The translations under genes and the position numbers were made by a program. Under the pieces are notes generated by a model. It was not told the origin of the DNA. It saw nothing but the letters and a program-made list of their open reading frames with translations, and searched no databases. 64,000 bases of DNA from Chloroflexota bacterium (GTDB taxonomy: Bacteria > Chloroflexota > Anaerolineae > Anaerolineales > Anaerolineaceae): NCBI GenBank assembly GCA_021779955.1, contig JAJXZS010000035.1:1-64000 (forward strand), read 5' to 3'. Position 1 is the stretch's first letter, and each line of letters opens with the position of its first letter. Positions 29,453-48,696 of the stretch are shown piece by piece.

Positions 29453-30409
29453 TCACGTAAGTGATTTTAAGAAACTGCTCAGCTTTTCTGCCATAAATAT
29501 CTCGGTCGCTTCCATCGATTCGCAGGTTGCGCCGCCGATGTGGGGCGTCAGGATCAGATTGGAGTGAGTTCGGGCGTAGCGAATCAACGGCGATTCCTTC
29601 AGTTCGCTGCTTCGCTCGTGCGGCAACACGTCCAATGCCGCCCCTGCCAGGTGCCCGCTCTCCAACGCCGCAAGAAGGGCTGCTTCATCCACAACATCCC
29701 CGCGCGAAGTGTTGACCAGTAAGCCGCCGCCAGGCATCTGCCCCAACTCCAGCCTGCCTACAAGCCCCGCGGTGCTCGCATTCAACGGCACGTGGATGGA
29801 GACAATGTCTGCCTTCCCCAGCAATTCCCCCATGTTCGAGCACTTCTCGACTCCGCCCTCCCACTCAAGCGGAGCCGGATCGTAAGCCAGCACTTTCATC
29901 CCGAATGCGATTCCATAGCGGGCCACAATGTGCCCGATTCGCCCCAATCCCAGGATGCCCAGGCTTTTTCCTGCCAGATCGTGACCCTTGAATCTGTCGC
30001 GATCCCACTTGCCGTGAAGCACCGCATCGAACGCGGAAGGGATCTTGCGGGTCAACGCCAGCAGCAGACCCCAGGTGAGTTCGGCAGTTGCCGGGACACT
30101 GCGTAAAAACTCGACCTCGCCCCGCAGCGAAAGCACGATCACGCCGTGATGCTCCGCGGCCTTCAGGTCGATATGGTCGAGCCCTGTGGTCGCGCTCACG
30201 ACTGCCTTCAGCTTCGGCGCTGCGGCGAACACCTCTTCATCGATCTGGTTGGCAAGGCGCACGATCAGCACGTCCACCTGGCCCAACGATTCGAGCAGAC
30301 CCTTCCGGTCGAGCTGGAGCATGCGCACGTCGCCCAGCCGGCGCAGGATTTCCTCTGCCGCTGGCGAGTAATTCCCTGGTTCAGCGTTGAGAATTTGCCA
30401 GCGTGTCAT
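29453..30409 (-). CDS. D-isomer-specific 2-hydroxyacid dehydrogenase
   Basis: 318 residues. GLGRIG at 154-159 binds NAD; R236 (NTSRG), E265 (LPHER) and H290 (TPHIGG) are the family's catalytic set. Start placed at ATG 30409, which overlaps the asnB stop by 4 bases and follows GGAG; the longer form would lie inside asnB. It is the last gene of the 19-gene operon. A second family member lies at 10099-11070, also in a NulO setting. Coupling to asnB hints that the two act in sequence on a carboxyl-bearing substrate, but nothing in the sequence names it. Confidence 0.83.
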   Translation of the reverse strand: MTRWQILNAEPGNYSPAAEEILRRLGDVRMLQLDRKGLLESLGQVDVLIVRLANQIDEEVFAAAPKLKAVVSATTGLDHIDLKAAEHHGVIVLSLRGEVEFLRSVPATAELTWGLLLALTRKIPSAFDAVLHGKWDRDRFKGHDLAGKSLGILGLGRIGHIVARYGIAFGMKVLAYDPAPLEWEGGVEKCSNMGELLGKADIVSIHVPLNASTAGLVGRLELGQMPGGGLLVNTSRGDVVDEAALLAALESGHLAGAALDVLPHERSSELKESPLIRYARTHSNLILTPHIGGATCESMEATEIFMAEKLSSFLKSLT

Positions 30410-32130
30410 TTCCCGATCTCCATCATTGCCAGGCTGATCCACTGCCAGACGTAGAAACTGTTCTCATGCTCTCCGGCGCAGAACTTCTGCCAGGCGCTGC
30501 GCACCGCCGCGCCGTCCAGCCAGGTCCCATTCAGCCTGGTGATGGCGGTTTCAATCTGACCGGTAGCCCAATCCTTGAGCGGACCTCCCAGCCATTCACG
30601 TTGAGGCGTCTGCAAAGGCCGCTTGAATGCCCCTACGACGCGATCAGGCGCGAGCCTCTTTGCGATTTTCCTCAGCATCCATTTGTGCGTTCCTTCGCGA
30701 ATCTTGCGGTCGGCAGGCTGGCGTAAAGCCAGTTCGAAAAGCCGGTGATCGAGGAACGGATCACGCAGCTCACAACCCACGCGCATCGAAATCCGGTCGT
30801 TGAAGCGGATTGCCCGTGGAATCTTTGTGAAAATTGCATCGCGGTATTGCAGGTTGCGCAGCCTGTCATCGAAAGGATGTGGCGATTCGAAGGTCTCGGC
30901 GAGCGCGCCAAATTCGCGAACGAGGCAATCCGCGCGGAATGGAAGGCTCTTCGAAGCCTGGAAGCTGCCATTTTGGTCGCTATGTGACGATTCGGCATAA
31001 TAATCGTACCCTGCCCATTGTTCGTCCATCCCGTTGCCGTCAAGCAACACGATGATCCCCTGCTCGCGCGCCACCTCGAACAGGCGGGCGTAAGCCAGGG
31101 TGGGCAAACCGGAATATGGTTCGTCCTGAGCTGCCTGGATGGATTGCGCGAGATCGGGAACTTCGGCTGCGGTGACGAGGCACTTGACCGATGGGTGTCG
31201 CGTGCGCGCAAGCATCCTCCTGGCCCAAACAAGCTCGTCATAGGCAGGGTCACCGGTAATGAAAGTAAATGCCTTGATATCGTTTTCAGCGCCCTTCACT
31301 TCATGCACCAGGCCCAAAAGCACTGACGAGTCAAGTCCACCGCTCAAATTGATCCCTACGGGCACATCGGATCGGAACCGCAAACGCACGCTGTCGGTCA
31401 TCAGCGCTTCGTATTCCTGCTCGATGACGCCCTCAGGCCGCTCATCGAAGTCGCGGACGCGTTCCGCCAGATCATACCAGCGTCTGATGCTCAGTTGGCC
31501 ATCACGCCAAGTGAGCGCATTTCCACCCCGAAGAGCTTGAATGCCCTTCCAAAAAGTCCGCTCGCTGTAGTCGGTCAATCCCCTGCCCAGGTAACTTGCC
31601 CACGTGACCGCATCCGGTTCGGCAGGGACGCCGGAGGCGAACAACGCCTTGATCTCGCTGGCGAACGTCAATTCGCCGTTTTGACCCAGGTGGTAATAAA
31701 AGGGCTTCACCCCAAGCCGGTCGCGCGCGGCAAAGAGCGTTTGGCTTTGCTCATCCCAAATGGCAAACGCGAACATGCCGATGAAGCGATCCAGGCAGGC
31801 AGCGCCCCACTTGATATACGCCGCAAGCACGACTTCGGTATCTGTTTGACTCTTGAAAGGGTACCCTACGAGTTCTCTGCGCAGTTCGAGATAGTTATAT
31901 ACTTCGCCATTGAACACGATCCAATAGCGGCCGCCTGCGTCAGGCATGGGTTGGTGACCAGCCTCCGACAGGTCGATGATACTCAACCGGTCGTGACCCA
32001 GCCCTGCTTTGCCGCCTGGGCTGACCCAGGTTCCCTCATCGTCAGGACCTCGGTGGCGCAGGATCTCCACCATGGCATTCAGCCGTTCTGCCGAACAACT
32101 CTCTCCAACGATGCCGGAAATTCCGCACAT
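30406..32130 (-). CDS. asnB: Glutamine-hydrolysing asparagine synthetase-type amidotransferase (AsnB)
   Basis: 574 residues; an N-terminal class II glutaminase domain with the nucleophile Cys2 in MCGISGIVG and the RHRGPDD and FNGEVYN blocks, then an ATP-pyrophosphatase domain with SGGLDSS at 263-269. Both active sites look intact. AsnB-type enzymes in surface-glycan loci often amidate sugar acids rather than aspartate; here it sits between CMP-NulO synthetase (22 bases) and a 2-hydroxyacid dehydrogenase (4-base overlap), which favours such a role. Length is within the AsnB range. General asparagine synthesis is the alternative. Confidence 0.85.
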   Translation of the reverse strand: MCGISGIVGESCSAERLNAMVEILRHRGPDDEGTWVSPGGKAGLGHDRLSIIDLSEAGHQPMPDAGGRYWIVFNGEVYNYLELRRELVGYPFKSQTDTEVVLAAYIKWGAACLDRFIGMFAFAIWDEQSQTLFAARDRLGVKPFYYHLGQNGELTFASEIKALFASGVPAEPDAVTWASYLGRGLTDYSERTFWKGIQALRGGNALTWRDGQLSIRRWYDLAERVRDFDERPEGVIEQEYEALMTDSVRLRFRSDVPVGINLSGGLDSSVLLGLVHEVKGAENDIKAFTFITGDPAYDELVWARRMLARTRHPSVKCLVTAAEVPDLAQSIQAAQDEPYSGLPTLAYARLFEVAREQGIIVLLDGNGMDEQWAGYDYYAESSHSDQNGSFQASKSLPFRADCLVREFGALAETFESPHPFDDRLRNLQYRDAIFTKIPRAIRFNDRISMRVGCELRDPFLDHRLFELALRQPADRKIREGTHKWMLRKIAKRLAPDRVVGAFKRPLQTPQREWLGGPLKDWATGQIETAITRLNGTWLDGAAVRSAWQKFCAGEHENSFYVWQWISLAMMEIGK

Positions 32131-32152: not shown

Positions 32153-32866
32153 TTAATGACGTTCTTGCAGCATGAACTTCACCAGTTTCAAATCCAATTC
32201 GCTGTCCACGTTCACCGAACGCTCTTCGGGCATGACATAGGGACGGATCAACTCGCCCCAAATCGAATTGGCGCTCATCAAATTATCGCGGTTTGTCAGA
32301 TAAATGCAACCGTTGCGCATGTAGGCCGGAGGAGCATAATCCTGCCTGCGCGTACCCTCGATCTCCTCGATCATAAACGGCACGAGGCGGTCGTTTTCGA
32401 TCTTCTTCATCAAAATGGGATGTTGAGCCAGCACACGTACGACCGAAATGACCGAATCGCAACCTCCTTTGGCGGCCAGATCGAGCGCCGCCAGGATGTC
32501 TTCGGGCGAGCGAAACGGGCAGGTGGGCTGCAGGAGGAGTACCCAATCGAGTTTGACACCGTCCATCTCCTCGATGGTCTTCACGGCATGCTGAAGCACC
32601 GGAACCATGGGGATCTTGTCGCCGCCCAGGTCTGCAGGGCGCATGAATGGCACCTCGGCGCCCAACTCCCTGGCGATGGAAGCAATCTCCTCATCATCCG
32701 TGCTGACGATCAGCCTGTGCAGCCGGCCGCGTACTGCCAGCGCCGGTTCGATGGTGTATGCGATGAGAGGCTTCCCTGCCACACTGCGGATATTCTTGCG
32801 CGGCACGCCCTTCGATCCCCCGCGTGCAGGGATGACCGCCAGTACTTTCGGTTGTTCTTCGCTCAT
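32153..32866 (-). CDS. CMP-nonulosonic acid synthetase (NeuA/LegF-type)
   Basis: 237 residues, the usual single-domain size. ARGGSKGVPRKN at 14-25 is the CTP-binding loop; STDDEEIASIA, LLQPTCPFR and VDSELDLK follow, as in NeuA, LegF and PseF. It activates a NulO with CTP. The gene comes right after NeuC-like and NeuB genes (9-base gap), completing a minimal epimerase-synthase-CMP transferase set. It lacks the phosphatase domain that its counterpart at 15302-16546 carries. Which NulO it activates cannot be told from the sequence. Confidence 0.9.
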   Translation of the reverse strand: MSEEQPKVLAVIPARGGSKGVPRKNIRSVAGKPLIAYTIEPALAVRGRLHRLIVSTDDEEIASIARELGAEVPFMRPADLGGDKIPMVPVLQHAVKTIEEMDGVKLDWVLLLQPTCPFRSPEDILAALDLAAKGGCDSVISVVRVLAQHPILMKKIENDRLVPFMIEEIEGTRRQDYAPPAYMRNGCIYLTNRDNLMSANSIWGELIRPYVMPEERSVNVDSELDLKLVKFMLQERH

Positions 32867-32875
32867 AAGAGCACC

Positions 32876-34033
32876 CTAATAGGTCAGACGCTTGGTAAAT
32901 GTAAGTTCGGTATTCGAGAGCACATCCGCGATTCGTTCACCGGCATGCCCGTCGCCGTAAAGAGTTACCCTTTCAGGACGCGGGCCGTTCAAATGCTTCT
33001 CGATCGCCGTAGTGATCTCTTTCCGGTCGTAGTCGACGTCGATGACGTTGGGTCCGCGTTCGCGTCCCGCTTCGCGACTCCCGATATTGACCGCTGGCAC
33101 GCCAAGATACGAGCACTCGCGAATCGCAACGCTCGAGTTACCGATGATGCAGCGGCTGCGGTTGATCATGCGCAAAAAGTCGATGGGGGGAATGTCCTTG
33201 AAGAAGTGAATATTCGTCGGCTGTTCGGTCTCGCGGAAAGAGCGAATGCCCTTGGACACGCTGTCCGAGCCAGCGTCAACGTTCGGCCAGAACCAGAGCG
33301 TTGGCATGCCCAGGTCGCGGATGGCATGCAGCGTTTCAGTGATTTCGTTCCGGCCGCTGGCGTACTCGGTGGTTACAGGATGCTGCATCACCACCAGATA
33401 CCCGTTGGAGAGGTTCACTTCGGCGCCCACACCGCCATACTTGACGAATGGGTCGGTCTTTTCCCCTGGGTTCTGGAGCACCTCATCGGCAATATCGATG
33501 GAGGGGCAGCCCGTCACAAACACACGGCTGGGGTCCTCACCCATACGGACGACCCGCTCGCGGGCCATTTGTGTGGTCACAAGGTGAATGTCGGCCAGCT
33601 TGGTGATGGCGTGGCGCACCTTCTCGTCGATACTGCCTGTCACTTCGCCGCCCTGCATGTGCACCAGGGGGATGTTCATGTAGGCAGCAGCGATGGCAGT
33701 CGCCATCGTTTCGTAGCGGTCGGCGATCGTCACCACCATATCCGGGCGCAAATTGTCGAACGTGGTGGCCAGTTCGATCAGACCCAGGCCCGTCGTTTTT
33801 GCCGAGGTGACCAGGTTCTCGCCTTCGAGCACCATGAACACCCTGGCATCCGCTTTGAAACCGTCCTGCGCCAGGTGAGTTTCAGCCTGACCGTAGCGGT
33901 CGAGCAGCATCGATGCCGCAGAAACGATCTGCAGTTCAAGTTCGGGATGGTTGCGGATGGCGAAAAGCGCCGATCGAATGCGCGAATAGGATGGCCGCGC
34001 AGTGATGACCACACAAACTTTACGTTTACTCAT
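32876..34033 (-). CDS. Hydrolysing UDP-N-acetylglucosamine 2-epimerase (NeuC/LegG-type)
   Basis: 385 residues. TARPSYSRI near the N-terminus, IADRYETMATAIAA, HMQGGEVTGSIDE and RHAITKLADIH are hallmarks of the hydrolysing epimerases NeuC and LegG, which release ManNAc or a 6-deoxy di-N-acetyl analogue from the UDP sugar. The adjacent NeuB (4-base overlap) and NeuA genes would convert the released sugar to CMP-NulO. It is the only 2-epimerase in the window, so the other two NeuB enzymes must obtain substrate elsewhere or share this one. A role in UDP-sugar epimerisation with the PseB/RmlD-like pair is less likely. Confidence 0.87.
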   Translation of the reverse strand: MSKRKVCVVITARPSYSRIRSALFAIRNHPELELQIVSAASMLLDRYGQAETHLAQDGFKADARVFMVLEGENLVTSAKTTGLGLIELATTFDNLRPDMVVTIADRYETMATAIAAAYMNIPLVHMQGGEVTGSIDEKVRHAITKLADIHLVTTQMARERVVRMGEDPSRVFVTGCPSIDIADEVLQNPGEKTDPFVKYGGVGAEVNLSNGYLVVMQHPVTTEYASGRNEITETLHAIRDLGMPTLWFWPNVDAGSDSVSKGIRSFRETEQPTNIHFFKDIPPIDFLRMINRSRCIIGNSSVAIRECSYLGVPAVNIGSREAGRERGPNVIDVDYDRKEITTAIEKHLNGPRPERVTLYGDGHAGERIADVLSNTELTFTKRLTY

Positions 34034-35097
34034 GCTTTATCCTCAAAATCGTCGGGCGAAAGGAATGTGTTGGCTGCAATATCCCGCCGCAGATTTCGTC
34101 CAAGAAAGTCATCGATTTGAGCCGCAGGGATGCCTGTGCCCGGTTTCCGAGCGGTCAGGTCTTCCCGCTGCAGCGTTCGACCGGATAACAGATCGCGTTT
34201 GGCCACCAGGCTCTTGCCGAACAAGCCGCGCATCTCGCGCATGGCCGAAGCATTCTCCTCTTTCTGCATGGGATGAGCCTGGGCCCGCTGAATGTAGCGA
34301 ACGCCTTCGACCAGCTGGCGCAGTTCGTCAGGGGTGAGCGAGGCCGGAACATCGGGTCCGAACGCCTGGCGCGAAAGCGTCACGTGCACTTCGATCATCT
34401 CCGCGCCCAGCGTTGCAGCCGCGAGGCCGGGATAAATCTTCCCCGAATGGTCTGAAAGTCCAACCGGCGTGGCGTAGCGTTGGCGAAAGAAATCCAGCAT
34501 GTTCAGCCCAACATCCTCGGGCATGGATGGGTACCTGGATGTGCATTGGAACACCAGCAGCGGCAGCTTGCGGCCCTGGATTTGCGCCACGACGCCGTCG
34601 AGTTCGGCGATCGAGCTCATCCCGCTCGAAAGCAGCACCGGTTTACCGGTCGCAGCGATTCGCTCGAGCAGCAGGGGGTTTCCCACTTCCCCCGAAGCCA
34701 CCTTCCACGCGGGCATGCCGATCTTGTCCAACAGATCGACCGCCTCCTCCGAAAATGGAGAAGAGAGAAAGATCAGACCGCGTTTTCTCGCGTGCTCGGC
34801 CAGGCCGGCCCAGCCTTCGGTTGTAAACTCCATGCGCTTCCAGTAATCATAGCGCGTGGCATCCTGGAAGCTGAACTTGACCCGAAACGGCTCGAGGACA
34901 GAGCTTTCAGCAGCTGCAATATGCGTCTGAAATTTGACAGCGTCGGCGCCGGCGTCGGCAATCGCATCGATGAACGCATGCGCCGTGCCAAGGCTGCCGT
35001 CATGCGCCTGGGCAACTTCGCCAACGATCATGGCCGGGAAACCCGGCCCAACCTGCCTGTCGGCGATCTTGAAAGGGTGAAGGGTTTTGTTCGTCAT
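34030..35097 (-). CDS. NeuB-family nonulosonic acid synthase with SAF domain
   Basis: 355 residues. The TIM-barrel domain starts MIVGEVAQAHDG (23-34), a variant of the AEIGxNHxG motif, with KFQ, SSGMSS, GLSDHSG and EVHVTL carrying the active-site and metal residues. From about 288 on is a complete antifreeze-like SAF domain (SLVAKRDLLSGRTL, PGTGIPA, FLGRNLRRD). It condenses PEP with a hexosamine, most likely the product of the downstream 2-epimerase, to which it is coupled by an ATGA overlap. It is also coupled by a 4-base overlap to the GT-B gene upstream. The exact NulO is undetermined. Confidence 0.88.
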   Translation of the reverse strand: MTNKTLHPFKIADRQVGPGFPAMIVGEVAQAHDGSLGTAHAFIDAIADAGADAVKFQTHIAAAESSVLEPFRVKFSFQDATRYDYWKRMEFTTEGWAGLAEHARKRGLIFLSSPFSEEAVDLLDKIGMPAWKVASGEVGNPLLLERIAATGKPVLLSSGMSSIAELDGVVAQIQGRKLPLLVFQCTSRYPSMPEDVGLNMLDFFRQRYATPVGLSDHSGKIYPGLAAATLGAEMIEVHVTLSRQAFGPDVPASLTPDELRQLVEGVRYIQRAQAHPMQKEENASAMREMRGLFGKSLVAKRDLLSGRTLQREDLTARKPGTGIPAAQIDDFLGRNLRRDIAANTFLSPDDFEDKA

Positions 35098-36527
35098 TCC
35101 TCTCCTACCAATTGAAGCAGGAACTTCGCAGTTACAGGGGTAGACTGCCCATCCAGGAAGGTCAATTCGTCTTCCACGAATTTGCGCCGGTTTTCACGCT
35201 GTAATTCGGGATGGGTCAGGGAAGTGTTCAGTTCGTCCACGAGCTCTTCAGGCGTAAAGGCGTTCACGCCCACGCCTGCCTGGTTGACCCTTGCCGCTGT
35301 TGGCCACGAGGGTACATCGTGCAGGGGGATCCAGAAGTTGTTCGGCCAGCCTGTCGGCGAATCGATGCACACGCTGATCGTCGGCTTGTCGTGCAAAGAT
35401 GCCTCCACCACCATGGTGGAATAGATCGAGACGAGCACGTCGCAATGCGCCAGCATCGATGCCTTTTCGGGGAAATCCTCGCCTGAATATCGCGGCAGTC
35501 CGCCTGAAAGCGCCTTTGGAGCCACCACGTGCACATCAGGGCAGTTGGCCGTGACCTCGTAAATCTTTTTGCATTCCTCCTGGTAATTCGCCTGCGGCTT
35601 GAAGTGATTGGGATGCAGCCGCAGCAGCAATTGAGCGGGTTCGGCGAGTTTTTGCTCGCTGATGATGCGCGTCAACTCTTCGACGATATGCAAGTTCGGC
35701 GAAATGCTCAAAGCCGTTGCTGCATAAGCGATCAGCTTCTTGTTGGGGTCGAGATGATGCTCGGCAAAGTATTCTTCCCGCGACATCTGCCAGGTCTTGT
35801 GGATATAGCCGTCGTAGAGCGGCATTCCGCCGACATGAATCGTGTTTTTCGGCCAATCCAGGCCTTCGCTCAGTTCCCTGACGTGGATCTGCGACCAGAC
35901 GTTGGCATAATCGACATCTGCGCCCGGCAGACCGAACGCGCTCGGGTTGTCCCAGCCGATGACGGTCATTGCGGTCTTCAAACCGCGGCGGGTGGCTTCA
36001 CGCAAGAGATACCGGTCGAGCCGCCAGCCTGCGGTCGAAGAAACCACCAGGTCCGGCTGGTACCTGTCGAAAAGATCGCCGAAAATGGCCGGCGTAAAAC
36101 GCGATGTTTGCCAGCGGCGAAATATGTTGCGCGCGATTTTCGAATACCGCAGGGCGTAGATAGCCGGGCGCATCATCTTGAGCGCGAGCTTGCGCTTACC
36201 CTTTGCTTCATACTCCTTGCGCTGCCTGTGTGTATCCACATAAGTCAACGGGATGCGTGGTGACATGCTCGCCCCGCGGACGTATTCCATCATGTCCTGC
36301 AGCGTACCGCGATAATTTTTCTGGTAGTCTTTGGTCTGTTTTTCGCGTGAAGACTCGAAAATGAGCAGGTCGTTGCCTGCATATTGGCTGCGCATCTGCC
36401 CGATCAGTTCGTCCTCGACCAGGAATACCAGCCGTATTCCCCTGGCAGTGAGCAGATCAGCCAGGCCGGTATACAGATAATAACCAAGCATCAAGCCGTG
36501 GTCGACGTAGATCAAAATGGTTTTCAA
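35094..36527 (-). CDS. Large cytosolic GT-B-like transferase, distant KpsS-like
   Basis: 477 residues without signal peptide or membrane helices. The N-terminal part starts ILIYVDHGLMLGYYLY; the C-terminal part shows RLHPNHF at 303-309 and a Ser/Thr loop with Glu, YSTMVVEAS, at 369-377. These correspond in order and spacing to RAHPDE/YNSTIGLEA and RIHPGE/YTTTVGLE in the KpsS-like proteins at 12803-14416 and 44939-46561. No named family is certain; CDP-glycerol glycerophosphotransferase-like folds share this style. The 4-base overlap with the NeuB gene makes a NulO transferase role attractive. Confidence 0.55.
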   Translation of the reverse strand: MKTILIYVDHGLMLGYYLYTGLADLLTARGIRLVFLVEDELIGQMRSQYAGNDLLIFESSREKQTKDYQKNYRGTLQDMMEYVRGASMSPRIPLTYVDTHRQRKEYEAKGKRKLALKMMRPAIYALRYSKIARNIFRRWQTSRFTPAIFGDLFDRYQPDLVVSSTAGWRLDRYLLREATRRGLKTAMTVIGWDNPSAFGLPGADVDYANVWSQIHVRELSEGLDWPKNTIHVGGMPLYDGYIHKTWQMSREEYFAEHHLDPNKKLIAYAATALSISPNLHIVEELTRIISEQKLAEPAQLLLRLHPNHFKPQANYQEECKKIYEVTANCPDVHVVAPKALSGGLPRYSGEDFPEKASMLAHCDVLVSIYSTMVVEASLHDKPTISVCIDSPTGWPNNFWIPLHDVPSWPTAARVNQAGVGVNAFTPEELVDELNTSLTHPELQRENRRKFVEDELTFLDGQSTPVTAKFLLQLVGEE

Positions 36528-36563: not shown

Positions 36564-37520
36564 TCAAAAATTATACCAGTGAAAGATTTTGTTATAGATG
36601 CCCATCAAGCCTGCCCGAATGAACGGCAGGTTCAGGATGCGTTTGCCTAATCCTGCAGGCGGCCTGCCTGGCAGACTCGAACCCTGTTTCCGCAACTCTG
36701 CCGGCACAGTATTGCTCATGTTCATGGCATACGGTTCGGCAGTCATCAGCCGCAGCAAGCCTGCACTGTTCATGGCTTCGTCCAGTTTCAGCACCTGCCC
36801 CATCGGGCGGTCCATCTGGAAAGGCGTGAATTGAAGCAGCTCCTTCTTGTATGCCACGAACTGCCAGTGCGAAGCGCCGACCTGCGCCGTCAGCCCCTTG
36901 TATGTCAGCCGGATATCCCTGGTTTCTTCGTACTTCTGGCGGATTTCGCTCTCTTCCGCGCCGAGGCTGAGATTGAACTCGAGGAAAGTCTGCCATGGGA
37001 TCAACTGGCCTTCGCTCACTTCGACCTCGGGATTGCCCTTCGCCCACTTGAGGGTGCCTTCCATCAGCTCTTCGCGCGTGCGGAAGGGACGGCTGGTCAC
37101 CATGCCCGCGTTGGGGTAAGTCTCAAGGATCTGCAGGGATGCCTCGAGCCAGCCTTTGCTGAACAGCGCGTCGCTGTCGGTATAGGCCACGATTTCGCCT
37201 GGCGCGGCCGGAAAGAGGATATCCCACGCGCCGCCTTTGCCCAGGTTCTTCTCCGAAAGGATCAAAAACTGGATCCTGCCCGCCAGGTGTTCGTCGAGCA
37301 AATATTGCTGGACTTCCTTGCATGAGCCATTGTCGAATACGAGCAGGTCGTGCTCAGGACCGGTATTCTCGTACAGGCTGCCCAGGCATACCTTGAGCAC
37401 GTCCAGGGCTTCTTCGTAGAAACCGCTCAGGAATGGGATGAAGTTCAGGACTGCAACCGTCACCCGTTTCGGTTTCTCGACAGTTTTCGCAGCTTTGGCA
37501 GGATTTTGGCCGATACGCAT
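36564..37520 (-). CDS. Glycosyltransferase, GT2-like (GT-A)
   Basis: 318 residues. After a short Lys-rich N-terminus comes VAVLNFIPF, FDNGS at 62-66, SEKNLGKGGAWD and the DXD motif DSD at 115-117 in AYTDSDALFSKGW. A DXD flanked this way indicates metal-dependent nucleotide-sugar transfer. The C-terminal third has basic and hydrophobic residues near 295-318 that may touch the membrane. It sits between a hypothetical transferase (2 bases) and the GT-B gene (36 bases) in the 19-gene operon. Sugar unknown. Confidence 0.75.
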   Translation of the reverse strand: MRIGQNPAKAAKTVEKPKRVTVAVLNFIPFLSGFYEEALDVLKVCLGSLYENTGPEHDLLVFDNGSCKEVQQYLLDEHLAGRIQFLILSEKNLGKGGAWDILFPAAPGEIVAYTDSDALFSKGWLEASLQILETYPNAGMVTSRPFRTREELMEGTLKWAKGNPEVEVSEGQLIPWQTFLEFNLSLGAEESEIRQKYEETRDIRLTYKGLTAQVGASHWQFVAYKKELLQFTPFQMDRPMGQVLKLDEAMNSAGLLRLMTAEPYAMNMSNTVPAELRKQGSSLPGRPPAGLGKRILNLPFIRAGLMGIYNKIFHWYNF

Positions 37521-37522
37521 GG

Positions 37523-38470
37523 TCAGTTCACAAGCTCCTCTGCTGAAGATTTTTCTCTCTTGGATTTCCTGAACTCGTCATAGGCTTTACGCGGATGGAA
37601 CACGGTGTGGAACAATTCGGCAAGCCCCGTGGAGCGCATGTGAATGGCGGGGAACAGCTCGAATTCGCGCCAGAATTGTTGCCACGTCATGCGCTTGCGC
37701 TTCAGTTTGCCGCCTGAGAGCGCCCAATTCGCCTCTGAGAGCAGGAAGATGTGACGTTTCCCACCCGCCAGGCGGATGTTCTCGCCGGTTTCGGGCAAGC
37801 GGTAGTGCGGCTGGCCGTTCGGCAAATGAGAATAGTCGTGCGCCTGATGAATGATCATCACGTCGGCCGTGGCATCCACGGTCTTCCAGCCGCGCCGCCG
37901 CGCCTCGTAGATCATCCAGTTGTCCCACCCCGCCCGCCCGATGGCAAAGTCGGGAATGCGCTCGAAGCAGGCGCGCGGATAGACGAAATAGTCGCTGCCC
38001 ATGGGCTTGTGCAGTGCGCCGTGCTGCCTGCACTCCTCCCGCAGCCGCCCGCTCCAGCCCGCCGAAAAGTCAAGCAGGCCGGTAATCTCCATGTCCCAGC
38101 GCTGCCCGACCATCAGGAACTCGCCGGCCTGGCGCAGCAGCTCATTTGCAGCTTCGAGGAAATCAGGCAGGAGCAGGATATCAGCGTTGACGTAAGCCAG
38201 CAGCGGGCTGTGGTTCTCCCCTCGCGCGAGATCGAAAAGCGAGCTGATCAAAGGCGTACCCAGCGCATTCCGCTTGACCTCTGCAATTTGCCTAACGCCG
38301 AGCTCTGCCGCCGCTTCTGCCATACCCGCTTCATCGCCAAGCAGCACCACCTCCACATTCCCGCCAAGTTCCACCCACGAACGGATGGCATTCCTCTGGA
38401 TGGTGGCAATGTGCGGGTTGGTGAAGGGTTTCGGTGCGGAAAATAGGGTGATGAGCGGATTTTCAGACAT
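37523..38470 (-). CDS. Putative glycosyltransferase (GT-A-like), unknown specificity
   Basis: 315 residues. LITLFSAPKPFTNPHIATIQRNAIRSW at the N-terminus and LAYVNADILLLPDF (91-104), with NAD in the DXD position, are typical of a little-studied bacterial GT-A group found in polysaccharide loci. GRAGWDNWMIYEARRRG later resembles acceptor-binding segments. No membrane helix; the C-terminus is basic. It is 2 bases upstream of a GT2 gene and 14 bases downstream of the SpsF-like gene. I recognise the style but not a characterised relative. Confidence 0.6.
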   Translation of the reverse strand: MSENPLITLFSAPKPFTNPHIATIQRNAIRSWVELGGNVEVVLLGDEAGMAEAAAELGVRQIAEVKRNALGTPLISSLFDLARGENHSPLLAYVNADILLLPDFLEAANELLRQAGEFLMVGQRWDMEITGLLDFSAGWSGRLREECRQHGALHKPMGSDYFVYPRACFERIPDFAIGRAGWDNWMIYEARRRGWKTVDATADVMIIHQAHDYSHLPNGQPHYRLPETGENIRLAGGKRHIFLLSEANWALSGGKLKRKRMTWQQFWREFELFPAIHMRSTGLAELFHTVFHPRKAYDEFRKSKREKSSAEELVN

Positions 38471-38484: not shown

Positions 38485-39273
38485 TTAGTGCTTCCCTTCC
38501 GTATCGCTTCGCTTTTCATAGTCGAACATCGTCTTATGCACGACACCCGAATTGAGCGAGATCAATTCGGGATGATTTCTCACCAATCTGAGCACTTCCA
38601 GCCAGGTGAAGTCGTTCCGGTTGTCCAGCTTTTCATACACGGCATGCAGGAAATCGAGGTCTTCGGGGGTATCCAGCGTCCAGCGCAGCGCGCCAAGATC
38701 TTCGCTGTAGTTCAACTGGATCACCTTGAACCGCCCTGCCACCTCGTATAGATAAGGCATCACATGTTCGCGCTCGTGCTTTTCTTTCGCTTCCTTCCAT
38801 GCCGTTTCTAGTGCCGCAAAAGTCGCCGCTTCAACGTCGAGCCCGATCGGGAAGGTGCGGGAAAACGGCGGGGGGAGACGGTTACAGGCAAAATCCGCAT
38901 TATTCTGCACAAGCGCCCGCACCACGTCATCGATCAGGGCGGGATCCACCAGGGGGCAATCGCCCGTCAGGCGTACGACGATCTGCGCTTTGTACTGTTT
39001 TGCGGCTTGATAATAGCGGTCGAGTACATCATGCAGGCTGCCGCGGGTGACCTCAATGCCGTACACCTTGCAGAAATGCTCGATCTCGTCATCCGATGGG
39101 TCGACCGTGGTCGCCACGACCACGCGGTTCACCAGTTTTGCTTTTGACACGCGTTCCACCATGCGCTCGAGCATGCTCCGCCCCCCAGCTTCCTTGAGAA
39201 CTTTGCCGGGTAACCGCGTTGAGCTCATGCGCGCCTGGATGATCGCTACGGTTCGCTTCGATGATTCTGCCAT
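38485..39273 (-). CDS. spsF: SpsF-like cytidylyltransferase-family protein
   Basis: 262 residues of the SpsF branch of the CMP-sugar nucleotidyltransferase fold: IIQARMSSTRLPGKVL at 11-26, LTGDCPLVDP near 103-112 and a C-terminal RWTLDTPEDLDFL. In Bacillus sps operons SpsF sits beside the NeuB homologue SpsE, and here a NeuB gene lies two genes upstream, so it probably activates a NulO or related sugar with a nucleoside triphosphate. Its loop differs from the ARGGSK of the two canonical NeuA-type enzymes in the window. Whether it uses CTP cannot be seen. Confidence 0.75.
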   Translation of the reverse strand: MAESSKRTVAIIQARMSSTRLPGKVLKEAGGRSMLERMVERVSKAKLVNRVVVATTVDPSDDEIEHFCKVYGIEVTRGSLHDVLDRYYQAAKQYKAQIVVRLTGDCPLVDPALIDDVVRALVQNNADFACNRLPPPFSRTFPIGLDVEAATFAALETAWKEAKEKHEREHVMPYLYEVAGRFKVIQLNYSEDLGALRWTLDTPEDLDFLHAVYEKLDNRNDFTWLEVLRLVRNHPELISLNSGVVHKTMFDYEKRSDTEGKH

Positions 39274-40380: not shown

Positions 40381-41448
40381 TCACTCGCCCAAATCGGTCC
40401 AACGCAGTTCTTTTCCCGCAGGCAGATCCTTGAGCGCGCGGGTACCCAGCACCTCGCCAAGGTGATCCGGTTTGATCGCTCCAGGCGTTGCCGGGCGCAG
40501 CACGTCGATCATATCGCGGGTGAATGTTTCGCCTGCACGGATATCCCGGGCAGCCCGCAGGCAGCGCCGTTGAACAACGGCGGTGTCCTTCTCATTCGCG
40601 CCGATCTGTTTGTCCGCGGAGCCCATTGCCCGCTCAAGTTCGCGCGTGCGGTCGACCATGTCGCGCCAGCTTTCCGGCGTCATCGAGAACGGATGATCCG
40701 GTCCTACCCGGGTGGTATCGTCTGTGAAGTGCTTCTCGATCACCCGCGCGCCAAGCGCTACAGCGCCGAGCACCGTGGCATGGCCAAGTGTATGATCCGA
40801 GAGGCCGATCACGAGTTCGGGGAACATGACCTTGTACGTTTCCAGAACCCGCAGGTTGATATCTTTGAAGGCGGCGGGGCTCGCCTCGTAATTGGTGTTG
40901 CACTGCAGGAGCACAAGCTGCTTGTTGATCGCGAGGATGGTATGCACCGCCCGCTGCACGTCGCTGATGTCAGCGGCGCCGCTGGAGATGATCACCGTTT
41001 TGCCTTTACGCGCAATGTACTCGAGCATCTCCAGCCAATCGATGTCGCCTGACCCGATCTTGTGCGCTTCGACGTATGGATCGACAGAATCCACAGCTTC
41101 GAAGTCGTAAGGAGACGAAAAATAATCGAGTCCAACCTTATCGCATTCCTCTTTCAGGATTGGCGTCCAATCGAAGGGGATCGAAGCATTTGAGTAAACC
41201 TCGAACACGCTCTTTTTCCAACCCGCCTGGTGGCTCACCTGCCCCTTCATCGCCTTGAATCCGTAATCTGAGACGATTTGAGGTGCCCTGAAATTCTGGA
41301 ACTTCGCCGCATCCGCTCCGGCGTCTTTTGCCATGTGAATGAGCGTCTTCGCCCGTTCCAGTTCGCCATCGTGGTTGGCGGAGATTTCCGCGATGAAATA
41401 GGTGGGAAAATCCGGTCCGATCACATGTTCGCCAATTTTGACATCCAT
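40381..41448 (-). CDS. NeuB-family synthase (SpsE/PseI-like) with SAF domain
   Basis: 355 residues from ATG 41448, which follows a GAGGAG site; the 43 extra codons of a longer form lack family resemblance and run back toward the upstream gene. The barrel begins YFIAEISANHDG, with KFQNF, SSPYDFEAV, ISSGAAD, GLSDHTLG and IEKHFTDD. The SAF domain spans about 293-355 (CLRAARDIRAGETF ... LGTRALKDLPAG). Sequence style differs clearly from the NeuB at 34030-35097, so a different NulO is likely, with pseudaminic acid-type a reasonable guess given PseB nearby. PseC, PseH and PseG are not in the window. Confidence 0.87.
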   Translation of the reverse strand: MDVKIGEHVIGPDFPTYFIAEISANHDGELERAKTLIHMAKDAGADAAKFQNFRAPQIVSDYGFKAMKGQVSHQAGWKKSVFEVYSNASIPFDWTPILKEECDKVGLDYFSSPYDFEAVDSVDPYVEAHKIGSGDIDWLEMLEYIARKGKTVIISSGAADISDVQRAVHTILAINKQLVLLQCNTNYEASPAAFKDINLRVLETYKVMFPELVIGLSDHTLGHATVLGAVALGARVIEKHFTDDTTRVGPDHPFSMTPESWRDMVDRTRELERAMGSADKQIGANEKDTAVVQRRCLRAARDIRAGETFTRDMIDVLRPATPGAIKPDHLGEVLGTRALKDLPAGKELRWTDLGE

Positions 41449-41488: not shown

Positions 41489-42406
41489 CTATGCCAGGGA
41501 CCGGATGTACTCCGGGAACCCGTGGCGGTATTGAGCGTGGAACTTGTCGAGCCCCCGCTCGAAATCGGGCAGCTCATGACCCAGTGCCTTGACGATCTTG
41601 CCCGTGTCCAGGCTCAGGTTCGGCGAGCGCGCGGCGGTCAGCCCGCCGTCCGCCACCGAAGCAGGCGCGATCAGCCTCTCGTCGAAACCAAACTTGCGCG
41701 CGATCGCCAGCCCAAAGTCGTACTTGCTCATCGGCTGCGCGCCCACAAGGTGATACAACCCCTGCAGATTCTTGTGCCCGGCTTCCTCCAGCATTTCGGC
41801 AAGGTCGAGCACCATCATCGGGCAGAAGAACACATCGGTGAATCCCTTCACATTCTTGCCTGCCGAGAATGCGTTGACGAAGAACTCCGCCAGGCTGCGG
41901 TTGCCTGCAACGCTCCAACCGTAGAAATTGACCCTGGTCACCAGCGCCTGCGGGAACACCTCGAGCACCGCGTTCTCGCCTTCCCACTTGGTGCGGGCAT
42001 AGACGCTCAACGGATTCGGCGTGTCGTTCTCGGTGTAATTGCCCTTTGACCCGTCGAAAACCGCGTCAGTGGAAATCTGGATCATCTGTATATCGTGTTT
42101 GCGGGCGGCAGCAGCAATCCTGCCTGGCAAAATGGCATTCACCTCGGTCGCCAGCTTAGGGTTGGCTTCGCAGGCTTCCATATTGGCGATCGCCGCGCAG
42201 TGCACGATGATCTCCGGCTTTTCGTCTTCGATGAGTTTCTCGATCGTTTCCGGTTCGGTGAGTTCAGCCTGAAGGCACTTGAAATCCACCCAGGTGAGGG
42301 GTGTGGTATTCGCCACGCCGGTAACCTGATTCTTCTTGCCGCCCACGGCCATGGCAAAGTTCAGGCCAAGCAGTCCGCTGACGCCCGTCACCAGGAAACG
42401 CGTCAT
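41489..42406 (-). CDS. RmlD-like sugar-nucleotide reductase (extended SDR)
   Basis: 305 residues from the ATG that overlaps the pseB stop by 4 bases. TGVSGLLGLNFA near the N-terminus binds NADP; AAIANMEACE, STDAVFDGSKG, YARTKWEGE (Y-x3-K) and the C-terminal SLDTGKI place it with dTDP-4-dehydrorhamnose reductases and relatives. Directly behind a PseB-type 4,6-dehydratase, it could reduce the 4-keto-6-deoxy UDP sugar, as reductases do in the L-FucNAc and L-QuiNAc/L-RhaNAc pathways. Classical dTDP-rhamnose synthesis is less likely, as RmlA, B and C are absent. It precedes a NeuB gene by 40 bases. Confidence 0.8.
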   Translation of the reverse strand: MTRFLVTGVSGLLGLNFAMAVGGKKNQVTGVANTTPLTWVDFKCLQAELTEPETIEKLIEDEKPEIIVHCAAIANMEACEANPKLATEVNAILPGRIAAAARKHDIQMIQISTDAVFDGSKGNYTENDTPNPLSVYARTKWEGENAVLEVFPQALVTRVNFYGWSVAGNRSLAEFFVNAFSAGKNVKGFTDVFFCPMMVLDLAEMLEEAGHKNLQGLYHLVGAQPMSKYDFGLAIARKFGFDERLIAPASVADGGLTAARSPNLSLDTGKIVKALGHELPDFERGLDKFHAQYRHGFPEYIRSLA

Positions 42407-43410
42407 ACCAATCTCCCTGCCAAATAATCGGCTTCGATGGGCGCGATGATCTTGCGGATCTCGGCGACATTCAGCCATTCGGTGTTGGTGTTGCTCGCGT
42501 AGCGGAAATCGTCGTTCAGATGCTTTCCGCGCTTTTCCCAATCGTGACCAAACCAGAGAGTCTCTGCCGGCTGGACGACGAACATATCCTCCAACTCAAC
42601 CGCCTGGCGCGCCTCGTCTTCAGAAATCAGCACTTCATGCAGCTTTTCGCCCGGCCGGATGCCGATCACGTTCAGTTTCGCTTCAGGGGCAACCGCCCTG
42701 GCCAGGTCGGCCACGGTCATCGACGGGATCTTGGGCACGAACACTTCACCGCCCGACATGTTCTCTACCGCGCGGATGACAAAGCGCACTCCCTGTTCCA
42801 GGCTGATCCAGAAACGGGTCATCCGCTCATCGGTGATGGTCAGCGTCCCGCTTTCACGCTGCTTGAGGAACATGGGCACAACCGATCCGCGGCTGCCGAC
42901 CACATTCCCGTAGCGCACGCAGGCGAACCTGGCGTTCTTGCCGGCGGCATACGCGTTCGACTGGATGATCAGTTTCTCGGCGGCAAGCTTGGTCGCGCCG
43001 TATAGATTGATGGGGTTGACCGCCTTATCGGTACTCAACGCCACCACCCGCTTGACGCCCGTGTCGATGGCAGCGTCGATCACATTACTCGAACCGAGAA
43101 TATTCGTCTTGATCGCCTCGCTCGGGTTGTACTCGCACGCCGGCACCTGCTTCAATGCCGCAGCATGGATCACGACATCCACCCCGTCGAAAGCGCGGCG
43201 CAGGCGGGCCTCATCGCGCACGTCGCCGATGAAATAGCGCAGGCTCGGGTCGTCATAGCCTGCCGCGCGCATCTCGTGCTGCTTGAGCTCGTCCCTGCTG
43301 AAGACGATGATCTTGGCAGGATGATACTCATCCAGCATCATCTTGATGAATTTCTTGCCGAATGACCCGGTCCCGCCGGTCACCAGTACGACACTTTTTG
43401 TCCAATCCAT
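42403..43410 (-). CDS. pseB: UDP-N-acetylglucosamine 4,6-dehydratase, inverting (PseB/FlaA1-like)
   Basis: 335 residues, normal for the family. TGGTGSFG at 11-18, HAAALKQVPACEYNP at 82-96, the catalytic T127-D128-K129 and Y137-x3-K141 are all present. It makes UDP-2-acetamido-2,6-dideoxy-L-arabino-4-hexulose, the entry point to pseudaminic acid or to L-FucNAc-type sugars. Start at ATG 43410; a 120-codon N-terminal extension of the same frame is antisense-like sequence within the neighbouring gene. It is coupled to the RmlD-like gene. The classic partner PseC is not seen. Confidence 0.9.
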   Translation of the reverse strand: MDWTKSVVLVTGGTGSFGKKFIKMMLDEYHPAKIIVFSRDELKQHEMRAAGYDDPSLRYFIGDVRDEARLRRAFDGVDVVIHAAALKQVPACEYNPSEAIKTNILGSSNVIDAAIDTGVKRVVALSTDKAVNPINLYGATKLAAEKLIIQSNAYAAGKNARFACVRYGNVVGSRGSVVPMFLKQRESGTLTITDERMTRFWISLEQGVRFVIRAVENMSGGEVFVPKIPSMTVADLARAVAPEAKLNVIGIRPGEKLHEVLISEDEARQAVELEDMFVVQPAETLWFGHDWEKRGKHLNDDFRYASNTNTEWLNVAEIRKIIAPIEADYLAGRLV

Positions 43411-44938: not shown

Positions 44939-46561
44939 TTACAGCGGTCTTCTATGATTATTGATTGCGGTCCAATCCAGCGTCTCTCCGGTCAGATATT
45001 TGAATGCCGGTTCGAAACGCTTCCTGTTCGCGGGATTCATCACCTGCGAAATCCTGTGCGTTTCATACTCGGGCCAGAATTTCATATGCCATGGGAAAGG
45101 CACCGGGAAGGTATAGAAGAAATGATATGCATACTTCCATGCCAGGTCGATCTTCGACTTCTCCAGGCGGAAGCTCTTCGGGTTTTCAAGGATCCTGCCC
45201 AGTATTTTGAAATAATCCACCCAGGATGCCGGATCGTATGTGAATCCCCTGCCCCGATAATGTGTTTGACCCGCCACGACCACCGGAATGCCGTTGAGAG
45301 CCATCTCGAGCCCCACGGTCGTCGTGTAGACCAGGCCGACATCCGCCATTTCGACAAGATCGTAAGTGTTGACGTTTTCGCCCGGCTGGATCACGTGAAT
45401 GTATTCGGGCAATTCGGGCAGCGTCTGGCGCACGACATCCATCATCGAATACTTGCGCGTGAGAATCTCGCCGGGATGGATGCGGATGATCAGCTGCACG
45501 TCGGGCCTGCCGATGAAGTAGAGGATCGTGCGGCTCACCCAATCGGCCATCGTCTTCGAGAAGACCTGGCGGCCGAGGGTCAGGCTGTCGCCAAGGACGT
45601 TGGTTGCGAGCAGCACGATCGGGCGGCTGTCCAGCTTCAGTTCTTCCCGCACTGACTGCGATCCCTGCGCCGGCTGGTTCTGCCACTGCCTGGTGAAATT
45701 CTCCGTCGTGCGGGCGGTGCGGCGGGCTTCGAACATGTCTTTGATGCGTTTGTATTGAGTATCGGTCAGCGGCTCGTCATGCTTGGCTTGCCACATCAGG
45801 GTGGTGTCCTGGCGCATGATCTCAACGTTCTGCCCCACCCAGAAGGCGTCCTTCTGATCGCTGAACTCGTACGTGGAGGTCGGGATCTTCAAAAAACGCG
45901 CCACCCGGTAGGCAATGCCGAATTCGAGGATTGTGCCGTTGGGCACGATCACCACATCCGGCTTCGAGACCCGCAGATAACTGTACAACGCCTGCGCGGC
46001 ATCCGTGTTGCGCTTGAGCCTGAATCGGTAGGTGGGGTTGTCTTCGGTGATCTCTTCTATTTGAAGGGTGTATTGGGTATCGTAAGCCGACACCTCTTTC
46101 ACCGCAGTCTGCAAGGCGGGTGGAAGGGGCGTATAAGGCGCACGCAGTGTGAGGAATGACACGGGCTTGATCAGGTCAGCAGCGGGTTGGAGCACCTTGC
46201 GGGTGTAGATATTCTGCCGCCGCAGATCGAACTTGGGTTGATCGGTGAACCAGTCGCTGTAGGGCAGGTACCCCAGCGTCACATCATTCCCTTCCGCTGC
46301 AAGCCCCAATGCCGTTGGCACGCCCTGCTCGATCCAGTAATGCAGAGTGGCAAACAGAAAGATCTTCTTTCCGGTGTGTTCCGCCTTTTGCCTGATCTTC
46401 CTGGCTTCTTCGGCCATCTCCGGAAGCTTCTCCTGCAAATGGTGCAGAGCGAAACGAGTATGAATCGGATTCTTTTGTTGGCGCACCAGCCAATAAAGCT
46501 CCGCAGTAAGTGGAATCTCCCCTAAAACGCGTTTTAGAGCATCTTTCTTTCCGGTAGGCAT
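44939..46561 (-). CDS. KpsS/LipB-like capsule glycosyltransferase (GT-B)
   Basis: 540 residues from ATG 46561, which follows GAGGAAAA and starts just after the wzt stop codon. No signal peptide or membrane segment. KKIFLFATLHYW opens the N-terminal domain; VIVPNGTILEFGIAYRVARF is mid-protein; RIHPGE (360-365), NTYDLVEMADVGLV and YTTTVGLE (412-419) form the donor site typical of capsule transferases. Its place next to the ABC exporter genes suggests it builds or caps the exported chain, perhaps with a NulO. It shares the R-x-H-P and Ser/Thr-Glu blocks with the proteins at 12803-14416 and 35094-36527. Confidence 0.68.
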   Translation of the reverse strand: MPTGKKDALKRVLGEIPLTAELYWLVRQQKNPIHTRFALHHLQEKLPEMAEEARKIRQKAEHTGKKIFLFATLHYWIEQGVPTALGLAAEGNDVTLGYLPYSDWFTDQPKFDLRRQNIYTRKVLQPAADLIKPVSFLTLRAPYTPLPPALQTAVKEVSAYDTQYTLQIEEITEDNPTYRFRLKRNTDAAQALYSYLRVSKPDVVIVPNGTILEFGIAYRVARFLKIPTSTYEFSDQKDAFWVGQNVEIMRQDTTLMWQAKHDEPLTDTQYKRIKDMFEARRTARTTENFTRQWQNQPAQGSQSVREELKLDSRPIVLLATNVLGDSLTLGRQVFSKTMADWVSRTILYFIGRPDVQLIIRIHPGEILTRKYSMMDVVRQTLPELPEYIHVIQPGENVNTYDLVEMADVGLVYTTTVGLEMALNGIPVVVAGQTHYRGRGFTYDPASWVDYFKILGRILENPKSFRLEKSKIDLAWKYAYHFFYTFPVPFPWHMKFWPEYETHRISQVMNPANRKRFEPAFKYLTGETLDWTAINNHRRPL

Positions 46562-47825: not shown

Positions 47826-47841
47826 GCGAACCCTTCAACCA

Positions 47842-48696
47842 TCAAATCATGTCTGCGAATTCTTTTTCCATGCGCCGGAAGTAGAACAGTCCGCTGATCA
47901 GGATCAAGATTGCGATACCGGCGGATGCAAGCACGCCGTAAAGCGGAATCCCGAAGGGAATTCTCAGTAGCGAATAACGGAACCCGATGATCACGCCCGC
48001 CATCGGATTGAGCGAATAGAGCAGCCGCCACTTCTCGGGGATGGTGGTGACCGAAATGATCACAGGCGTGACGTAAAACCACAGCGTGGTCAGGAAGGTG
48101 GTGATGTAGGCGATGTCTCTGTAGCGCACCATCAACGCCGCCAGCCATAGCCCGACTCCCAGGGCCGTGATCATGGCGAGCAGGATAAACGGGATCAGCC
48201 AGAACACATTCCACGTCAACGGAATCTTGTAGAAGATCAGCATGCCGATCAGGATGAGGAACCCGAATCCGAAATCGACCAGGTTCGATAGCACAGACGA
48301 GATCGGCAGGATAACCCGCGGGAAGTAGATCTTCGAGATCATGTTGCCGCTTGCCACCATCGAACCGCTGATCGCCATCAGCGACGCGGCGAACAACTCC
48401 CATGGCAGGTTTGCAGCGTACGAGAAAATCGGGTAAGGCAAACCTTCAGAGGAGACCTGCAGCAGGTTGCCGAAGATGACCGAAAAGACCACCGTGATCA
48501 CAAATGGCTTGATGATCGCCCACAAAATGCCGAGAACCGATTGCTTGTAGCGCACCTTGACGTTGCGCCAGGTGAGGAAATACGCCAGTTCGCGGTAGAA
48601 CCACAGGTCCTTAAGGTTCAACGCAACCCAGCCCTTGCTCGGCTTGATGATCACCGTGCTCGCTTGCTTCGGCAGTCCGATCTCTTTAGTCGTCAT
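47842..48696 (-). CDS. wzm: Polysaccharide ABC exporter permease (Wzm)
   Basis: 284 residues of the ABC-2 permease type: an N-terminal amphipathic stretch, FLTWRNVKVRYKQSVLG ahead of the first span, about six membrane helices and a short C-terminal tail. It forms the channel for the Wzt ATPase encoded next. ATG 48696 is preferred, with AGGAAG 13-18 bases upstream and no overlap with fcl; ATG 48726 is an alternative adding ten residues but would overlap fcl by 20 bases and lacks a clear ribosome site. Downstream gap to wzt is 16 bases. Confidence 0.9.
   Translation of the reverse strand: MTTKEIGLPKQASTVIIKPSKGWVALNLKDLWFYRELAYFLTWRNVKVRYKQSVLGILWAIIKPFVITVVFSVIFGNLLQVSSEGLPYPIFSYAANLPWELFAASLMAISGSMVASGNMISKIYFPRVILPISSVLSNLVDFGFGFLILIGMLIFYKIPLTWNVFWLIPFILLAMITALGVGLWLAALMVRYRDIAYITTFLTTLWFYVTPVIISVTTIPEKWRLLYSLNPMAGVIIGFRYSLLRIPFGIPLYGVLASAGIAILILISGLFYFRRMEKEFADMI

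Follow-up and report, generated by a model that had tools for sequence, protein, structure and literature searches.

Three nonulosonic acid synthases and three putative glycan transferases in a probable surface-glycan locus of an Anaerolineales bacterium

Bacterial transferases of nonulosonic acids (NulOs) are hard to recognize by sequence, and a stretch of 64,000 nucleotides from a Chloroflexota bacterium of the Anaerolineaceae (assembly GCA_021779955.1, contig JAJXZS010000035.1; hereafter the window) raises the question of which enzymes attach the NulOs that it appears to make. The window holds three genes for NulO synthases, NeuB1 (14413..15324, with a start at 15324 or 15288), NeuB2 (34030..35097), and NeuB3 (40381..41448), all on the minus strand; in agreement with a preliminary description, which had counted three, they are the only matches to PF03102 (E 0.001) in the 2.83-Mb assembly. 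That description further proposed that each synthase travels with its own dedicated KpsS-like glycosyltransferase of GT-B fold, two of them with overlapping genes that would be translationally coupled. The candidates are GT1 (12803..14416), GT2B (35094..36527), and GT3 (44939..46561), likewise on the minus strand, and GT3 indeed belongs to the gene run of NeuB3, from which three genes separate it. We find that three NulO pathways stand beside three enzymes that probably attach NulOs to a surface glycan. Comparison with relatives suggests a tendency for two of the pathways to retain a transferase that matches; the remaining enzyme seems linked to the exporter instead. The reading we favor, at a probability of about 0.58, is that GT1, GT3, and GT2B*, the subtype of the window's GT2B, are transferases of cytidine monophosphate (CMP)-activated NulOs, acting on a glycan that is exported by an ATP-binding cassette (ABC) transporter and whose donor cassettes swap.

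The three proteins are remote homologues. Profile alignments combined the window proteins with 27 of 30 GT1 rows, 14 of 16 GT2B relatives, and 17 of 25 GT3 rows, and their comparison gave probabilities of 99.5% for GT1 and GT3 (E 5e-23), 97% for GT2B and GT3 (E 6e-11), and 95% for GT1 and GT2B (E 4e-8), so that the three do not fall into unrelated folds. As had been noticed earlier, all three carry an RxHP motif (at residues 357, 303, and 360 of GT1, GT2B, and GT3, respectively) and, 57, 67, and 54 residues later, a Ser/Thr loop ending in Glu, [ST][ST]xxxE. The pair occurs in 112 of 113 open reading frames (ORFs) scored as GT1, GT2B, or GT3 relatives, which are homologues rather than independent cases and come in part from overlapping stretches; it is found in 7 of 1602 non-family ORFs of at least 300 residues, and shuffled sequences give 0.3 of 113. 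In the K13 transferase of 3-deoxy-D-manno-oct-2-ulosonic acid (Kdo), (K/R)XHP, Ser271-Ser272, and Glu276 are described as the CMP site; HP is common to sialyltransferases and retaining Kdo transferases, and the nucleophile resides in QXXXD (passages of PMC12887879, from 2026). The motif of the three proteins has the S-S-x-x-x-E spacing of this published site. It speaks for a donor of CMP type and does not single out KpsS.

Two kinds of protein can be told apart, and the label KpsS-like stands for only one of them. GT1 and GT3, which match PF05159 with 32.2 and 27.4 bits (gathering cutoff 20), resemble the retaining Kdo transferases of the KpsC/WbbB type; we take PF05159 (Capsule_synth) to comprise KpsS, KpsC, and LipB. 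A KpsS-like GT2B was rejected, as this protein shows no PF05159 match at E 0.001, has a canonical GT-B fold, and lacks a conserved acid at the place of the nucleophile. The structural model of GT1 (pLDDT 90.4, pTM 0.89), aligned by VIA-align after Foldseek preselection, has KpsC entries in all five best rows (Z 14.2–15.8); KpsC 8fuw superimposes with Z 15.8 over 274 residues at 3.8 Å, and WbbB with Z 12.4 over 304 residues at 5.2 Å. Foldseek alone placed UDP-GlcNAc 2-epimerases first, with TM-scores of about 0.25, and KpsC at rank 34 (0.31/0.49); VIA-align put KpsC first. At E ≤1, KpsC is also the only solved sequence to match the profiles of GT1 and GT3, with weak values of 0.005 and 0.019. 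The modified GT-B fold of the KpsC/WbbB type is thus indicated for GT1 by its model, and for GT3 by its profile relationship to GT1 only.

Conservation outlines a candidate active site in both proteins. In GT1, all 40 rows share E236, N318, D322, R357, H359, P360, and S414, and E419 is present in 39, with one gap; in GT3, all 34 rows share E232, N321, D325, R360, H362, P363, T414, T415, and E419, with Tyr or Phe at position 231 before the Glu. The Asp lies 37 residues upstream of the His in both (D322 and D325) versus 34 in KrkA (193 and 227), and the Glu precedes the Asp by 86 residues in GT1 and 93 in GT3 versus 91 in KrkA (102 and 193). With CMP-site motifs, an NxxxD acid spaced from HP like the KrkA nucleophile, and an invariant Glu 86–93 residues earlier, GT1 and GT3 would transfer by double displacement with retention. 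They may extend the covalent-adduct double-displacement transferases, described for Kdo enzymes, to this phylum.

GT2B combines an HP motif (38 of 38 rows) with a GT-B fold, which its model (pLDDT 92.3) shows in the canonical form. W192, D193, N194, R303, H305, P306, S370, T371, and E375 are invariant in the same 38 rows, and no acid is conserved at positions 268–274, where Glu occurs in three rows at 273. The canonical fold, the invariant W-D-N, and the lack of an acid at the nucleophile place would fit an inverting transferase. PDB sequence matches of the GT2B profile to PrsA and an oxysterol-binding protein were read as spurious. NF046086, named for the glycosyltransferase BFO_1060 and, we presume, perhaps kin to the Tannerella transferases discussed below, matches the three window proteins with 50.9, 49.0, and 29.8 bits, far below its cutoff of 200; no paper on BFO_1060 was found in the open-license literature.

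Do the synthases and these enzymes occur together in other genomes? We used a phylum sample of 400 genomes, at least 70% complete and including the genome of the window; family and genus labels (f and g) are those of the genome collection. NeuB1 has no SAF domain match (PF03102, E 1.4e-77). Taking at least 440 bits as a close NeuB1 and at least 460 bits as GT1, NeuB1 is present in 33 of the 400 genomes and GT1 in 32 of those 33 but nowhere among the remaining 367; Fisher values for this co-occurrence overstate it, since they treat related genomes as independent, were computed with 401 genomes in place of 400, and are not probabilities. Thirty of the pairs lie within 6 kb. In G383, the sole NeuB1 genome lacking a GT1 match, NeuB1 sits at a contig end, and G363, with only fragments of NeuB and GT1 (58 bits), is outside both counts. 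Among 27 further genomes, chosen for having NeuB2, the NeuB1 place is occupied in 24, and 21 have a GT1-like match within about 5 kb (the exceptions being G474, G517, and G707); these 21 are second places of the GT3 query, read from coordinates, and nine of them are labeled GT1. A scan of named genomes with GT1 returned five loci, all from metagenome-assembled genomes of Anaerolineaceae or Anaerolineales, with no cultured strain among them. From the stability of the NeuB1–GT1 pair we infer that GT1 uses the NeuB1 product.

Upstream of NeuB1 lie a fusion of a CMP-ulosonate synthetase with a HAD phosphatase like KdsC and KDN-9-phosphatase (15302..16546; PF02348 and PF08282, with TIGR03584 and KdsC models below cutoff) and the genes of SDR and Gfo/Idh oxidoreductases (16540..18365; Pfam, synteny), all on the minus strand. 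Beside a NeuB without SAF, this fusion may indicate a route through a phosphorylated ulosonate. An MptE-like (DUF115) protein, also seen in several f1 relatives, is encoded at 8514-9320, close to where the NeuB1 run ends; we take DUF115 to be a domain of the Maf NulO transferases of flagellin.

The relation of GT2B to NeuB2 is one of subtype. In the order sample (350 genomes; E 1e-100 or better for a GT2B relative, 1e-70 for NeuB2), GT2B relatives are present in 187 genomes, 162 of them without a NeuB2 match, NeuB2 in 30, and both in 25; with the family this widespread, the idea that GT2B is simply NeuB2's private enzyme was discarded. Seven genes, however, score above 540 bits (in G000, G604, G691, G672, G393, G598, and G563; the next score is 478) and form the subtype GT2B*, a clade with 99/99 support and outgroups present in a tree that carries a long-branch warning. 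All seven genomes hold NeuB2, which lies directly downstream of GT2B* in six. Contexts of NeuB2 were available for 29 of its 30 genomes (not G466). The usual locus order is GT2_36k, resident GT2B, Gfo/Idh; in G604, G691, G563, and the window, a cassette of NeuB2, NeuC, NeuA2, and 2-hydroxyacid dehydrogenase stands between GT2_36k and Gfo/Idh, the window adding further genes. G598 has the cassette in the same slot without GT2B* there, and G672 carries GT2B* beside NeuB2 plus a resident GT2B. Twelve positions separate all seven GT2B* proteins from at least 21 of 22 resident ones, and two of these, T271 and A272 in GT2B* versus Ser and Phe, belong to the loop that follows the donor domain's first strand. 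One slot with either a resident GT2B or the NeuB2-linked subtype amounts to a natural experiment, in which the 12 positions point to residues that may set donor choice.

In the window, the minus-strand cassette continues from NeuB2, which has an SAF domain, into NeuC, a hydrolyzing UDP-GlcNAc 2-epimerase (32876..34033; TIGR03568, 364 bits, cutoff 235.9), and NeuA2, a CMP-NulO synthetase (32153..32866; PF02348, the best NCBIfam model, TIGR03584, being below cutoff). Behind it are a 2-hydroxyacid dehydrogenase and an AsnB-like gene (29453..32130), both also found in G604 and G691, and the dehydrogenase without AsnB in G672, G393, G598, and G563. A GT2 glycosyltransferase and an unlabeled gene (36564..38470) mark the upstream edge of the slot. 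NeuB2 scores 288.7 bits against the N-acetylneuraminate synthase model TIGR03569, below the cutoff of 399.65, and its best PDB matches are SiaC entries. Since NeuB2 is closest to the SiaC/NeuB of N. meningitidis among solved proteins and NeuC is above its cutoff, a sialic-acid-type product is likely. On the favored reading, NeuB2-NeuC-NeuA would have entered the operon slot of the resident GT2B as one cassette, and the GT2B* subtype would use its sialic-acid-type sugar.

The third enzyme appears to follow the exporter. GT3 (PF05159; 99.5% profile probability to GT1) adjoins Wzt, which has a C-terminal Wzt_C domain and forms with Wzm an ABC glycan exporter (46563..48726, minus strand; PF00005, PF14524 at 31.3 bits with a cutoff of 30.4, PF01061), and Wzt and GT3 are adjacent in 26 of 26 loci (26 genomes) where they are paired. 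NeuB3, which has an SAF domain and SpsE and PseI as its closest solved relatives, stands with an RmlD-like reductase (PF04321) and PseB, an inverting UDP-GlcNAc 4,6-dehydratase above its model cutoff (TIGR03589, 498 bits, cutoff 407.75; both at 41489..43410, minus strand), and the cluster includes a cytidylyltransferase (38485..39273, minus strand; PF02348, 1.3e-35) that we presume to be SpsF-like. GT3 is retained at 488–518 bits in the g286 genomes G479, G534, and G549 (80, 80, and 91% complete), where PF03102 at E 1e-25 found no NeuB3 and instead a single NeuB2 per genome, accompanied in G534 and G549 by a gene of NeuB1 type; the latter were typed by a frame of 296–297 residues with GT1 beside it, which locus L150 confirms for G549. 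The earlier notion of NeuB3 and GT3 as a dedicated pair is not supported by these genomes, and we regard the pairing as weak.

An alternative view of GT3 is that it serves as a WbbB-like chain terminator or linker enzyme of the exported glycan and takes whichever CMP-ulosonate is offered. The recurrent Wzm-Wzt-GT3 run and the Wzt_C domain speak for it, as does the turnover in the usual place of PseB-RmlD-NeuB3, which holds NeuB2-NeuC behind GT3 in G549 and G479 and unrelated genes in G363; in G534, GT3 lies behind Wzt with no NeuB nearby. On the other hand, PseB-RmlD-NeuB3 is kept behind GT3 in most loci seen, and we consider this broader role a real possibility that falls somewhat short of an even chance. 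In the O12 system, as described in part of PMC11231755, WbbB adds a terminal Kdo, which is recognized as a cap by a module carried on the transporter. By analogy, a role of GT3 in chain ending or linking, in which the exporter would recognize it, is plausible and, given its place with Wzt, more likely than that of a private partner of NeuB3.

Three side observations concern this part of the locus. No pyridoxal phosphate (PLP) aminotransferase is labeled in the NeuB3 run (41489-43410), and the NeuB3 product may carry a 7-hydroxyl rather than a 7-amino group, for which fusaminic acid is a parallel. Between PseB and GT3, 43412-44908 encodes an asparagine-synthase-like protein with a weak PF00733 match, a label absent from the loci of relatives that were examined. 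In the usual NeuB3 slot of G363 lie two neighboring DUF3800 genes (L105:8720-10426).

Translational coupling had been offered as a sign that each synthase travels with its own transferase. The GT2B–NeuB2 overlap of 4 bases is clean (ATGA); that of NeuB1 and GT1 (TTGA) exists only if GT1 starts at TTG. Gene order also differs, with NeuB1 followed by GT1 but GT2B followed by NeuB2. Exactly 4 bases are shared at 10 of the 40 codirectional junctions of the window, NeuB2–NeuC among them, in a count whose gene starts were set by hand, three of them approximately; since such overlaps are this common, those between NeuB and transferase genes say little. A start giving the overlap is available in three of six GT2B*–NeuB2 pairs, counting that of the window, whereas the 12 other NeuB1–GT1 pairs of f1 offer none. 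Coupling is not conserved in f2, where 19 of 21 NeuB1–GT1 pairs are at least 650 bases apart; NeuB1 and GT1 touch in all 13 pairs of f1, as they do in G549, G070, and G672. Overlaps and pairing might be dense operon packing with no functional meaning, as the frequency of the overlaps in the window and the fact that relatives do not keep them would suggest, but this leaves the genome-level co-occurrence and the NeuB2-linked GT2B clade unexplained, even if related genomes are not independent, and we hold it to be highly improbable.

At the other extreme, strict modules of one synthase and one transferase, in which a dedicated paralogous transferase travels with each NeuB as a unit, would account for NeuB1–GT1 in 32 of 33 genomes and for GT2B* with NeuB2 in 7 of 7, the two pairings for which the original claim is supported. 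They would also agree with strain-specific NulO transferases of Tannerella forsythia that did not complement each other (portions of PMC6388019). The claim does not extend to GT3, kept in three g286 genomes with NeuB2 and no NeuB3 found (two of them 80% complete), nor to most GT2B genes, 162 of 187 genomes being without a NeuB2 match; a NeuB of another kind stands beside GT1 in f97. Pairing does recur in other genomes: outside the window, the phylum sample has a motif-bearing ORF within 6.5 kb of 30 of 32 NeuB1 genes, 25 of 34 NeuB3 genes (an undercount, as contig or locus ends cut distances), and 6 of 37 NeuB genes of other classes (five of the 37 being in f2 genomes). Some GT2B relatives, among them those close to NeuB in L016, L056, and L065, escape the strict motif. 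NeuB matches above about 80 bits that were left out are fragments in G161 and G363 and a low-scoring class in G026, G246, and G329; weaker, DAHP-synthase-like matches were excluded from the NeuB set. Strict modules are unlikely, and NeuB–transferase pairing characterizes these Anaerolineales families, not the phylum as a whole.

Several points weigh against CMP-NulO transfer by GT1, GT2B*, and GT3. The roles are predicted, no activity or glycan being known for any member. In GT1 and GT3 the presumed nucleophile motif is N-xxx-D in all rows (N318xxxD322 and N321xxxD325), not the QxxxD that is invariant in known retaining Kdo enzymes, and for this reason they were not filed in GT99, GT107, or GT140; in the fold list of GT1, a 2-epimerase (Z 12.9, but at 9.0 Å) comes behind KpsC and ahead of WbbB. 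Beside GT1, the f97 genome G512 has a fusion of NeuB, SAF, and a xylose-isomerase-like TIM barrel (651 residues; L157:4107-6062), and frames of 630–670 residues at the NeuB1 place in other f96/f97 genomes suggest the same fusion, so that GT1 stays while the kind of synthase changes. More distant SAF-less NeuB proteins (333–395 bits) occur in G200, G368, and G380 with no GT1 match. Most genomes with NeuB2 (23 of 30) have no GT2B*, GT2B* lies on another contig (C74) in G598, and no GT3 appears in the stretch examined around the NeuB3-class genes of G220 and G358. Known terminators carry a coiled-coil ruler, according to part of PMC11231755.

For GT2B the structural comparison is itself ambiguous. 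Its fold list is led by 2-epimerases (Z 23.4), which we read as the common GT-B fold on account of the RxHP site and the operon, although by fold alone GT2B may have an epimerase-like role; no bacterial sialyltransferase is among the best 50 rows listed, and in all 29 rows the 190 residues preceding RxHP are free of the D/E-D/E-G motif. GT2B could instead be a transferase of the TagF/TarL type using a CDP-polyol or another CMP or CDP donor, beside which the NeuB2 cassette merely landed. The CDP-ribitol enzyme TarL is among the fold matches (Z 21.3; its 16% identity is the highest among the best 50 rows), PF04464 (Glyphos_transf) gives 23.6 bits on the whole protein, just above the cutoff of 22.1, though no single stretch passes, and the family is widespread without NeuB2. 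Set against this are the subtype split, which goes with NeuB2 in 7 of 7 genomes and includes fixed changes beside the donor site, and the Pfam labels of 50 window proteins (a subset of its ORFs), among which there is no CDP-polyol gene; this role seems to us somewhat unlikely.

We thus return to the favored reading, in which a large surface-glycan locus would make up to three CMP-activated ulosonic acids, to be attached before export by Wzm/Wzt. A bolder synthesis, which we find doubtful as a whole, would have Anaerolineales hold two new ulosonate-transferase families with an N-xxx-D nucleophile, one of them bound to a SAF-less NeuB with a phosphatase-fused CMP-synthetase and hence to a phosphorylated, perhaps undescribed ulosonic acid. 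GT3 would then cap the glycan with a NulO read by the Wzt domain as an export signal, donor pathways would be exchanged as cassettes, and the GT2B slot would change its transferase together with the sugar.

Elsewhere in the window, a plus-strand block (18766-24685) with DegT, FdtA/hexapeptide, LPG-synthase-like, and PMT-like genes breaks the otherwise collinear locus and lies in a stretch of lower GC content (about 0.45 from 20 kb on). Beyond the glycan locus, 52526-54403 encodes an AAA/SMC-type ATPase in a GC-poor stretch (52–56 kb, GC 0.395).

How do these proteins compare with known systems? The open-license literature on NulOs with Chloroflexi or Anaerolinea held no study of such a locus among the matches listed, and as far as searched, the Anaerolineales locus, the NxxxD variant, and a cassette exchange that changes the transferase with the sugar are new. 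KpsC (GT107) and WbbB (GT99) share with GT1 the fold (Z 15.8 and 12.4) and RxHP, KrkA (GT140) shares the spacing of [ST][ST]xxxE (S271, S272, E276), and a further common feature is an Asp that follows the first strand of the C-terminal domain. Unlike these enzymes, GT1 and GT3 have NxxxD in place of QxxxD, structural alignments show 10–15% identity, and the presumed donors have nine carbons, with NeuB adjoining and no Kdo gene labeled nearby. GT2B resembles the sialyltransferases of GT38, GT52, and GT80 in its HP motif within a GT-B fold (PMC2169525 and PMC5517516, in part) but is without their D/E-D/E-G motif. A KpsS relative that transfers pseudaminic acid is already known: KpsS1 of A. baumannii (GT118) is reported as a retaining transferase whose likely base is the Glu of a YE motif (PMC12887879, in part), to which, by description only, Y/F-E at 231-232 of GT3 corresponds. 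The Tannerella forsythia transferases GtfS and TFUB4_00887 differ from the window proteins in being about 440 residues long, 81% identical to each other, and engaged in protein O-glycosylation; as strain-specific enzymes that match the NulO made and do not cross-complement, they had already established, in the account of PMC6388019 available in part, that NulO transferases may be donor-strict and vary with the pathway.

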